From an uncultured Erysipelotrichaceae bacterium (GTDB taxonomy: Bacteria > Bacillota_I > Bacilli_A > RF39 > UBA660), in NCBI GenBank assembly GCA_902783315.1, contig CACZQK010000038.1:1-47465 (forward strand): a stretch of 47,465 nt of DNA, read 5' to 3'. Under the pieces are notes generated by a model. The model was not told the origin of the DNA. It saw only the letters and a program-made list of their open reading frames with translations, and did no database searches. Of this stretch, positions 2,214 to 4,679 are shown piece after piece (position 1 is the stretch's first letter; every line of letters begins with the position of its first letter). Both the position numbers and the translations under genes were made by a program.

Positions 2214-2243
2214 TTTACAGAAAAACTATTTTAATGTTATAAT
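2214..2243 (+). promoter_or_regulatory. Promoter of the WXG100-like/glycosidase gene
   Basis: TTTACA (2214-2219), 18-base spacer, TATAAT (2238-2243), followed by the ribosome binding site GAAGGTG and the ATG at 2273. Confidence 0.65.
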
Positions 2244-2272
2244 ATAAATAAGTATAAATAGAAGGTGACAAA

Positions 2273-3382
2273 ATGGCAGAAGAAAATTTTGGTTTTTCAA
2301 ATTATGAAGTTTTTAATGATGCAATTAGCCACACTAAAACAGCAAATGAGGCAATAACATCTGCAGAAACAGAAATAAAAGGGTGTCAGTCTCAATTAGG
2401 TAGTGATGCTATTTTTATGGGACCAATAGCGGACTCTTGTAAAGATGAATTTAATAAAATATCCGTACAGATTTCTAGCATGAAAGAAAATTTCACTAGT
2501 ATTGCTAGTTTCTTATCTAGCACAAGTGATACCTACAAAGGAAAAGATAATACTGCATCTAATAAAATAATAAATACAGGAATAAAAAATGAATCAACAA
2601 ATAAAAAACGAATTGATACTAAAAATATTAAGAGTGGAACAAAAGTTTCCAATGCTCTTACCAAATATAAAGACGAGTTAGAAGGAGCCGAATATGCTAC
2701 TGTTAATGATAAAATTTTTACAACAACTAAAACGGAAATGATTAATGGTCAACCAGTAAAAGTAACTCATGTTGTCATTAACGACCCAAGTCAAATCAAC
2801 GGATCACCAGCTAATGGAATTTATGGAAATGGCCTAGAAACATCATCTTCTGCTGCCAATCGACTAAATTCTGCTATTCTAGTTAATGGTAGTCACTTTA
2901 GAAGTGATGGCCAAGAAGACTTACAAGGTGCAAATAACATCGTTATTGTAAATGGTGAAATAAAAAAAGATGGCGTCTCTGGTGGTCAAGAATTACTATT
3001 AGATAGTGCCGGAAACATTTATAATGCAGCAGGAAAAAGTGCTCAACAATTAGTAGATGATGGAGTAAAATATAGCTTTGCTTGCCATAGCACTCAAGTA
3101 ATTGAAAATGGGGATACTTCACCAAGCTATAATGAACCAAGACATTACATGAGAACTGTCATTGGTCAGACAAATCCAGGTGAATACTATATTGTTACCG
3201 ATACCACTGAAAACAATGTATTAAGTGATACTGCAGAATATTTAAAAGGAAAAGGATGTGACAATGCGTATAGTTTAGACCAAGGAGGAAGTGTTACTTT
3301 AGTAAGAGATAATAACGTAATTAATACACCAAGAGATGGTAGTGAAAGAGAAGTTGGAGACTTCTTATACTTTACAGCCTAA
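2273..3382 (+). CDS. WXG100-like domain fused to phosphodiester glycosidase (NAGPA-like)
   Basis: 369 residues, two parts. Residues 1 to about 105 have no signal peptide and read as a helical hairpin of WXG100/LXG style: FMGPIADSCKDEF sits where W-x-G and the following helix would be, and the segment ends SDTYKGKD, like the Y-x-x-x-D/E tail of ESX substrates. The C-terminal 200 residues fit the phosphodiester glycosidase family (the N-acetylglucosamine-1-phosphodiester alpha-N-acetylglucosaminidase fold): AILVNGSHF, then SLDQGGSVTL, NTPRDGSEREVGDF, which match the family's G-x-x-NG-x-F, LDGGGS and P-x-DG-x-ER-x-x-x blocks. I infer an exported enzyme acting on a cell-surface or polysaccharide phosphodiester sugar, exported by a type VII route. 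No ESX genes are seen nearby. It is monocistronic, with its own promoter and terminator. Confidence 0.75.
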   Translation: MAEENFGFSNYEVFNDAISHTKTANEAITSAETEIKGCQSQLGSDAIFMGPIADSCKDEFNKISVQISSMKENFTSIASFLSSTSDTYKGKDNTASNKIINTGIKNESTNKKRIDTKNIKSGTKVSNALTKYKDELEGAEYATVNDKIFTTTKTEMINGQPVKVTHVVINDPSQINGSPANGIYGNGLETSSSAANRLNSAILVNGSHFRSDGQEDLQGANNIVIVNGEIKKDGVSGGQELLLDSAGNIYNAAGKSAQQLVDDGVKYSFACHSTQVIENGDTSPSYNEPRHYMRTVIGQTNPGEYYIVTDTTENNVLSDTAEYLKGKGCDNAYSLDQGGSVTLVRDNNVINTPRDGSEREVGDFLYFTA

Positions 3383-3387
3383 AAAAT

Positions 3388-3417
3388 AAAAAGCAACCAC
3401 CAAGAGTTGCTTTTTTT
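3388..3417. terminator. Bidirectional terminator between convergent genes
   Basis: AAAAAGCAAC, an 8-base loop, GTTGCTTTTT, followed by T on the plus strand and preceded by an A run that serves as the T run on the minus strand. It sits in the short gap between two convergent genes and overlaps the stop of the minus-strand one. Confidence 0.85.
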
Positions 3418-4064: not shown

Positions 4065-4679
4065 ATGAATTTTGATTTAGAAAATATAATAAAAAATATA
4101 AATTTTGACTATAACTCACCCGTAATAATTACTTACCTAGTTATTTCTTTAATAGCTTGTCTATTAAACTATATAACAAAAGGAAAAATGAATAAACTCC
4201 TATTCAGTAATTATCGAAGTTCTCCTCTAAATCCCTTAACCTATATTCGTCTATTCTCTCACTGCATCGGACACAAAGATTGGGATCATTTTGTAAGTAA
4301 TTTCTTATACATCCTACTAATAGGACCAATGATAGAAGAAAAATATGGAAGTTTAAACTTAATTGGAATGATTTTAATGACATCCCTAGTAATTTCTCTA
4401 TTCAATATTATATTTCACAATTATTGTATTACAGGAGCATCTGGTAATGTCTATATGCTTATCGTATTAAGTTCTTTTTCAAACATAACAGAAGAAAAAA
4501 TACCTATAACATTAATTTTAATTTTATTATTTTATATAACAAGTGAAATAAAAAAAAGCCTCCTAGAAGGCAATAAAAAAATTTATCATGATGGTCACTT
4601 ATTAGGAGCATTATGTGGAATAATTTTTGGTTTCTATTTTCTCTACTTTGAAGCATTTCCATTTATAAACATCTCTTAG
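4065..4679 (+). CDS. Small rhomboid-family intramembrane serine protease
   Basis: 204 residues, about six hydrophobic segments and no extra domain. The serine protease dyad is present: GASGNVYM holds the nucleophile (about Ser126, motif G-x-S-G) and DGHLLGALCG the base (about His178, motif H-x-x-G-x-x-x-G). DHFVSNFLY resembles the conserved H-x-x-x-N segment that forms the oxyanion hole, although the first His is shifted. It would cleave transmembrane segments of unknown substrates. It is about half the length of the second rhomboid in this window (44742-45893), which has a long cytosolic N-terminal domain. It is convergent with a decayed gene whose end it overlaps by a few bases. Confidence 0.85.
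   Translation: MNFDLENIIKNINFDYNSPVIITYLVISLIACLLNYITKGKMNKLLFSNYRSSPLNPLTYIRLFSHCIGHKDWDHFVSNFLYILLIGPMIEEKYGSLNLIGMILMTSLVISLFNIIFHNYCITGASGNVYMLIVLSSFSNITEEKIPITLILILLFYITSEIKKSLLEGNKKIYHDGHLLGALCGIIFGFYFLYFEAFPFINIS

Follow-up and report, generated by a model that had tools for sequence, protein, structure and literature searches.

The gene at 2273..3382 on the forward strand of the window (the whole stretch of 47,465 nucleotides analysed here, which constitutes contig C38 of a 1.40 Mb assembly in 108 contigs, estimated to be 72% complete) encodes a fusion, P0001, of 369 residues from its ATG, in which a WXG100-related helical hairpin head precedes a divergent NAGPA-type phosphodiester glycosidase domain. 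Based on sequence and genomic comparisons, we propose that P0001 is probably a wall-modifying substrate of a type VII secretion system and that it would act on the envelope of the producer itself. The link to type VII secretion, which the first-pass annotation had suggested, gains genomic support from the presence of EssC-type ATPases, the relationship of the head to WXG100 proteins, a YxxxD/E motif after its second helix and the location of sister genes in WXG100 operons.

The gene is preceded by a promoter-like site (TTTACA-18-TATAAT with a TG before the second hexamer; 2214..2243), identified by consensus match only at 11 of 12 positions, and by a ribosome-binding-like stretch, GAAGGTG, read directly from the DNA (2261..2267), both on the forward strand like all features of the protein given below; a terminator-like hairpin, scored on both strands, ends it (3388..3415). 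It stands as a single gene between a divergent HtpG gene and a convergent HD-domain gene, the latter followed by a rhomboid gene (4065-4679). No immunity-like gene lies beside it, and no small WXG100 gene was found within five genes. P0001 has no signal peptide, the top hydropathy of any 17-residue segment near its N-terminus being 0.51, as compared to 2.31 and 2.94 in the two other NAGPA proteins of the same genome. Thus, the absence of a signal peptide and of an adjacent immunity-like gene, both claimed earlier from the window, is borne out. A rhomboid gene also lies on the same strand 7-21 bases downstream of the NAGPA gene in four genomes (G003, G007, G035 and G037). A role for the rhomboid as a NAGPA-specific immunity or processing factor was considered and rejected, as a search of 24 genus mates found it in 18, in most cases with no headed NAGPA.

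The head (residues 1-100; 2273..2572) was delineated by profile comparison, AlphaFold2 prediction and family alignment, and on these grounds belongs with the WXG100 superfamily as a variant that lacks the W of the W-x-G turn. Residues 10-92 of P0001 match the Pfam WXG100 family with 14.9 bits, under the cut-off of 27.3, and the head scores below both the Pfam and the NCBIfam WXG100 cut-offs (PF06013, TIGR03930). When the 37 heads of the family profile are taken together, WXG100 is the commonest Pfam family, matched by 13 of the 37 at E<=0.05 (best 1.3e-5), and EspC is matched by ten; the LXG domain (PF04740) has no match in the P0001 head and matches only one of the 37, with an E-value of 0.022. 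In profile-profile comparisons, hhalign matched 99 columns of the head profile to one of the small WXG100 families of the genus (E-value 1.2e-5, probability 81%), and two other small WXG100 families gave nothing. AlphaFold2 predicts two helices for the head alone (residues 12-48 and 50-103; mean pLDDT 78.5) with the turn at F-M-G-P, so that the helical hairpin proposed from the window for the N-terminus is upheld by structure prediction. The top Foldseek match of this model in the PDB is the EsxA:EsxB complex (PDB identifier 4lws) with TM scores of 0.75/0.80 but an E-value of 0.16, because two-helix hairpins are common, and the predicted hairpin shape by itself is not significant. Searching PDB sequences with the head profile gave no useful information, the hits being mainly viral coiled coils with weak E-values, with WXG100-type entries only at E-values of 0.14-0.75.

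Iterating the profile over loci fetched from the matching genomes yielded 49 headed proteins, in which the conserved features of the head are clearer. The turn motif F-M-G-P of P0001 (residues 48-51; 2414..2425), which takes the place of W-x-G in the family alignment, conforms to an FxGP pattern present in 43 of the 49 heads, with FMGP in 39 and any W in only two. A YxxxD/E motif follows the second helix in 47 of the 49 heads, as against 14.6% of shuffled heads; YxxxD has been described as important for type VII export in Bacillota (PMC12558993). The longer C-terminal export consensus reported for WXG100-type proteins (PMC3935865) is matched by 41 of the 49 heads and by 2.1% of the shuffles; the matching heads include that of P0001, where the export-signal-like segment YKGKDNTASNKI (residues 88-99; 2534..2569), assigned by motif match, carries YxxxD inside the extended consensus. 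Thus, the P0001 head shares with the WXG100/ESAT-6 family (PF06013, TIGR03930) a length of about 100 residues, a predicted helical hairpin, YxxxD/E and the extended C-terminal consensus, and differs from it in the F-x-G-P turn, the fusion to an enzyme and the sub-cut-off score. A disulfide within the head was also considered, but Cys residues occur at both of alignment columns 39 and 57 in only 20 of the 49 heads, which is too patchy.

A search of the genome for EssC/YukB, proposed in the first-pass annotation, identified two EssC-type ATPases of 1546 and 1525 residues (contigs C43 and C90), with 939.0 and 1000.8 bits against the NCBIfam EssC equivalog cut-off of 778.4, the first of which has FHA and FtsK/SpoIIIE domains. 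Type VII genes are thus present in the genome. Beside the two essC genes are genes for proteins of 90 and 86 residues without a match to any Pfam family at E<=0.01. EssC relatives are found in 37 of 38 genus mates and are missing only from G021. Within the genus, co-occurrence of head and EssC is not discriminating, since EssC is present in all 24 strongly headed mates and also in 13 of the 14 others; the corresponding head/EssC table across 98 relatives (24/0/24/50) is inflated by shared ancestry and is phylogenetically weak, because the head is restricted to one genus. No EssB/YukC (PF10140) was detected in the genome itself, and 24 genus mates had none over the cut-off, with three weak partial matches among them, while the same search was positive in a genome of another family (G060); with no EssB over the cut-off, we refer to the system simply as type VII and assign no subtype to it. 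Like the subtypes described as T7SSb to T7SSj (PMC11217815), it has an EssC that combines FHA and FtsK/SpoIIIE domains, alongside small WXG100 proteins and, beside essC in the YukD position, a small gene; it is unlike T7SSb in that EssB/YukC is not over the cut-off in the genome itself or in the 24 genus mates.

The sister genes give an indication of what the headed proteins may do. Tails of more than 60 residues follow 46 of the 49 heads and fall into clusters of 15, 10, 5, 5, 3, 2, 2, 2, 1 and 1. Pfam assignments of cluster representatives, extended by cluster membership and not by scanning each protein, cover 36 of the 46 tails as phage tail lysozyme (15), glucosaminidase (10), NAGPA (5), C39-like peptidase (5) and CHAP (1); the others comprise two sub-cut-off glucosaminidases, one sub-cut-off C39-like peptidase and seven without a convincing Pfam assignment. 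Signature residues are kept in 15/15 lysozyme-like, 10/10 glucosaminidase and 5/5 C39-like tails, and a strongly hydrophobic N-terminus is found in none of the 49 headed proteins. A search of the genome itself with residues 1-100 revealed one more head, 62% identical, on a 299-residue glucosaminidase (contig C67); YxxxD and the longer consensus are absent from this second head, and its gene adjoins three small WXG100 genes. More generally, a cluster that recurs among the loci combines a WXG-headed enzyme with a serine-rich protein and three small WXG100 proteins, joined by one to three enzymes with FxGP heads; in many cases two convergent FemAB-family genes come next. In G007, an NlpC/P60-like WXG-headed enzyme, an FxGP-headed glucosaminidase, the serine-rich protein, three small WXG100 genes and EssC are contiguous. 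Among 45 distinct headed genes in larger loci (a near-copy in G015, identical to another head over the first 60 residues, was dropped), a small WXG100 gene lies within five genes of 26. None of the five FxGP-headed NAGPA genes, P0001 included, has a small WXG100 gene within this distance, some of them being on short contigs; that of G035 has WXG-headed neighbours.

As most of the sister tails are peptidoglycan hydrolases, a wall-modifying role is favoured for P0001. Among large type VII substrates, LXG toxins are well known (PMC10765036, PMC5555719), proposed conflict proteins that combine NAGPA with a TelC-type domain have been described (PMC12419801), and the tails on the heads are varied, as in polymorphic toxins. 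The headed proteins might therefore be antibacterial effectors that cut the walls of competitors, with self-protection coming from wall chemistry, for example through the FemAB pair, in place of a dedicated immunity gene; 13 of the 45 headed genes have a FemAB-family gene no more than five genes away. We consider this unlikely, though it retains some weight. A small unannotated same-strand gene, the candidate for immunity, is next downstream in only two of the 45 cases, where more usually a further headed gene or a convergent one comes next; the sister tails are of an autolysin-like kind, and the NAGPA part is conserved (76-88% identity among the FxGP-headed proteins); and G021, in which EssC is not detectable, has the FemAB pair as well. 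A self-directed role is preferred because immunity genes are missing and the tails resemble autolysins. Thus, of the two functions put forward in the first-pass annotation, antibacterial or wall-modifying, the latter is strengthened by the sister tails and the former is disfavoured. LXG and YeeF polymorphic toxins of T7SSb likewise have an N-terminal helical targeting part and an enzymatic C-terminus, and are often encoded beside small WXG100-like partners, but the proteins described here have a single WXG100-sized hairpin head, no immunity gene and autolysin-like tails, and by the features tested P0001 is not an LXG toxin.

The human uncovering enzyme, a member of the NAGPA family, has GlcNAc-1-P-6-mannose as its substrate, and wall polymers are linked to peptidoglycan through GlcNAc-1-P on C6 of MurNAc. 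For P0001 as a self-directed wall enzyme, we envisage that the WXG100-derived hairpin probably pairs with one of the small WXG100 proteins of the genome and that its YxxxD signal would be recognized by an EssC-type ATPase, as in known systems, after which the protein would pass through the membrane. Once outside, its NAGPA domain would act on a wall glycopolymer by hydrolysing a sugar-1-phosphate diester. The likeliest such bond would be that between the polymer and peptidoglycan, GlcNAc-1-P to C6 of MurNAc, which is proposed because it resembles the substrate of the human enzyme. Two LCP genes in the genome are in keeping with such a bond, without being proof of the substrate. Type VII-tagged lysozymes, glucosaminidases and peptidases, together with NAGPA, could then open or remodel the wall of the producer, perhaps making way for the secretion system or for further substrates of that system. 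By extension, and more tentatively, type VII secretion in this genus may serve mainly as a route for the organism's own wall enzymes, with a genome-matched, WXG100-derived tag on lysozyme, glucosaminidase, peptidase and phosphodiester glycosidase and with the machine supplying wall-opening tools.

How type VII substrates cross the wall of the producer and reach their target is among the questions that a T7SSb review (PMC10765036) describes as open, and wall hydrolases of the donor have been suggested as helpers (PMC5555719). A precedent for a wall hydrolase needed by, and dedicated to, a type VII system is EssH of Staphylococcus aureus, which is stated to be exported by Sec and not to be a T7SSb substrate (PMC13059805). 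EssH has a Sec signal peptide and a CHAP domain, whereas the wall enzymes described here carry type VII heads and no strongly hydrophobic N-terminus, with CHAP found in one tail of one member. Wall enzymes with type VII-like tags, some of them encoded inside the WXG100 operon, make the question of wall crossing testable, and the single-hairpin tag could serve to follow type VII export.

The catalytic part of P0001 comprises a linker and an N-terminal portion defined by alignments (2573..2875), followed by the NAGPA/DUF2233 domain (residues 202-367; 2876..3373), which is matched by Pfam (PF09992) with 65.9 bits against a cut-off of 25, confirming the enzyme family named in the first-pass annotation. 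The two membrane-signal paralogues of the genome score 150 and 145 bits. A search of PDB sequences with P0001 gave NAGPA-type entries with E-values no better than 0.014-0.05, and prediction of the full-length structure, from five sequences, was poor in the NAGPA half (mean pLDDT 52.5). In a tree of 16 NAGPA domains, eight sequences that we term T7-linked form one clade with support of 100/100 and a stem of 1.97 changes per site. The alignments also reveal a clade motif N-G-S-H-F (residues 205-209; 2885..2899) and a D-Q-G-G-S motif (residues 336-340; 3278..3292), the counterpart of D-G-G-G-S in other NAGPA; D-Q-G-G-S is present in all eight T7-linked sequences where others mostly have D-G-G-G-S, and in all eight the DG(R/Q) motif is absent and the FGP motif is replaced. 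With the NAGPA/DUF2233 family, including the human uncovering enzyme and the phage protein YomE, P0001 shares PF09992, the Arg of R-T-x-I-G and D-x-G-G-S; the absence of DG(R/Q), the long stem and, in P0001, a helical head instead of a membrane signal set the T7-linked clade apart. The domain is, by sequence, a divergent NAGPA. NAGPA has also been described in cell-surface phosphoesterase fusions (PMC11188070).

These replacements, the long stem and the low Pfam score relative to the paralogues would also be expected if the NAGPA part were no longer a phosphodiester glycosidase and had become a wall-glycan binding domain or an altered enzyme. This reading comes next in likelihood and is again improbable. 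The NAGPA part is under purifying selection, with dN/dS of 0.11-0.19 in all ten pairs of the five FxGP-headed proteins and 154 of 230 positions of the catalytic region invariant; P0001 retains the Arg of R-T-x-I-G and the Asp of D-x-G-G-S, and the sister tails keep their signature residues. Nevertheless, the activity of the domain is uncertain owing to the loss of DG(R/Q) and the poor model, and its specificity or activity may have changed. This clade, with its changed active-site region, offers a subject for substrate study.

The N-termini of the T7-linked clade have been exchanged while the enzyme was retained. Five of the eight sequences have FxGP heads, one has a W-S-G head (G002), one has a different helical N-terminus (G007) and one has LysM repeats (G042), whereas the eight other NAGPA, including those on contigs C71 and C55 of the same genome, have hydrophobic N-terminal segments, except that of G030, whose ORF starts late. 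The NAGPA gene of G007, preceded by a gene for a 130-residue protein that looks helical by eye, has rhomboid and TrpS after it, the same place as in G003 and G035; because the place is shared, the head changed in G007 while place and enzyme stayed. The homologue in G042 is a 1050-residue LysM-NAGPA with three LysM repeats and no signal peptide, encoded divergently from essC (L055:4435-7587). In the same five proteins that show strong conservation of the NAGPA part, the heads are less constrained (dN/dS 0.28-1.03; 16 of 100 positions invariant).

The heads tend to follow the genome. Mean identity between heads on different enzyme classes within one genome is 51% (37 pairs), as against 35% when the enzyme class is shared but the genomes differ (197 pairs), a difference reached in none of 2000 label shuffles. 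Nearest neighbours are mixed, with 17 of 36 heads closest to one from the same genome, 14 to one on the same enzyme and two to both; of the five NAGPA heads, three have a head of their own genome as nearest neighbour. Tandem duplication contributes to this likeness within genomes, which also fits, without proving, adaptation to a genome-specific receptor. A further reading would make the head a coincidental coiled coil with no tie to type VII secretion, on a protein retained in the cell; this would be consistent with the sub-cut-off Pfam score of P0001 and the viral coiled coils in the PDB search. It is very unlikely, given the profile match to WXG100, the prevalence of WXG100 among the Pfam matches, the conserved turn and YxxxD, the location of sister genes in WXG100 operons and the swapping of N-termini within one NAGPA clade.

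Judged by strong matches, the head family is restricted to one uncultured genus of Bacilli. The whole of P0001 matched 38 of 99 genomes (its own and 98 relatives), and the 37-head profile matched 26 of the 99, namely its own and 25 of the 38 genus mates (24 strongly and G021 weakly), with none among the 60 relatives outside the genus. In 395 genomes drawn from the class, the head was found only in its own genome and, weakly, in two genomes of the same family. In 392 genomes of the phylum, a search with the fusion profile picked up, outside the source genome, G042 and three distantly related NAGPA proteins with membrane signals (E-value 1e-20) and nothing else. P0001 alone found nothing in database genome contigs; an alignment-based contig scan gave four relatives, viz., uncultured Erysipelotrichaceae RUG14143 and RUG12809, Bacillales bacterium UBA3789 (placed in Bacilli by NCBI) and an uncultured Firmicutes bin. 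The weak match in G262 is a small protein with a W-S-G turn and a YQSADANAKNAI tail, encoded in a row of small WXG100-like genes that adjoins a 94-residue gene similar to those beside essC; this protein and its context suggest, short of proof, an origin of the head from an ordinary small WXG100 protein. Derivation of the gene from a phage or prophage wall lysin, which the matches of several sister tails to the phage tail lysozyme family PF18013 and the NAGPA-like proteins of Bacillus SPbeta-type phages might bring to mind, is scarcely credible, as the best phage match is headless and starts only at residue 142 (62% coverage, 32% identity), no relatives of the fusion were found in viral contigs, and the neighbours at this place are HtpG, a rhomboid gene that is widespread, and TrpS.

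Alone among the genus mates in having no detectable EssC, G021 has kept a WXG100 operon and two divergent FSGP-turn heads without YxxxD (L080, L081); its EssC may have been lost or may be absent from the assembly. The FemAB-family pair convergent to the head operon occurs in many genus mates, being seen at L004:12453-15030, with equivalents in L043, L049, L054, L081, L090, L096 and L097, and might adapt the wall to the hydrolases that are exported. Two stand-alone heads of 104-106 residues carry no enzyme (L053:9707-10027, L027:1492-1806) and are possibly partners or leftovers. Three FxGP-headed tail families have no convincing Pfam match (the first at L045:8558-9403, L032:955-1830 and L034:1377-2219; the second at L045:9417-10244 and L029:573-1400; the third at L057:1040-2892) and are candidates for new wall-acting domains.
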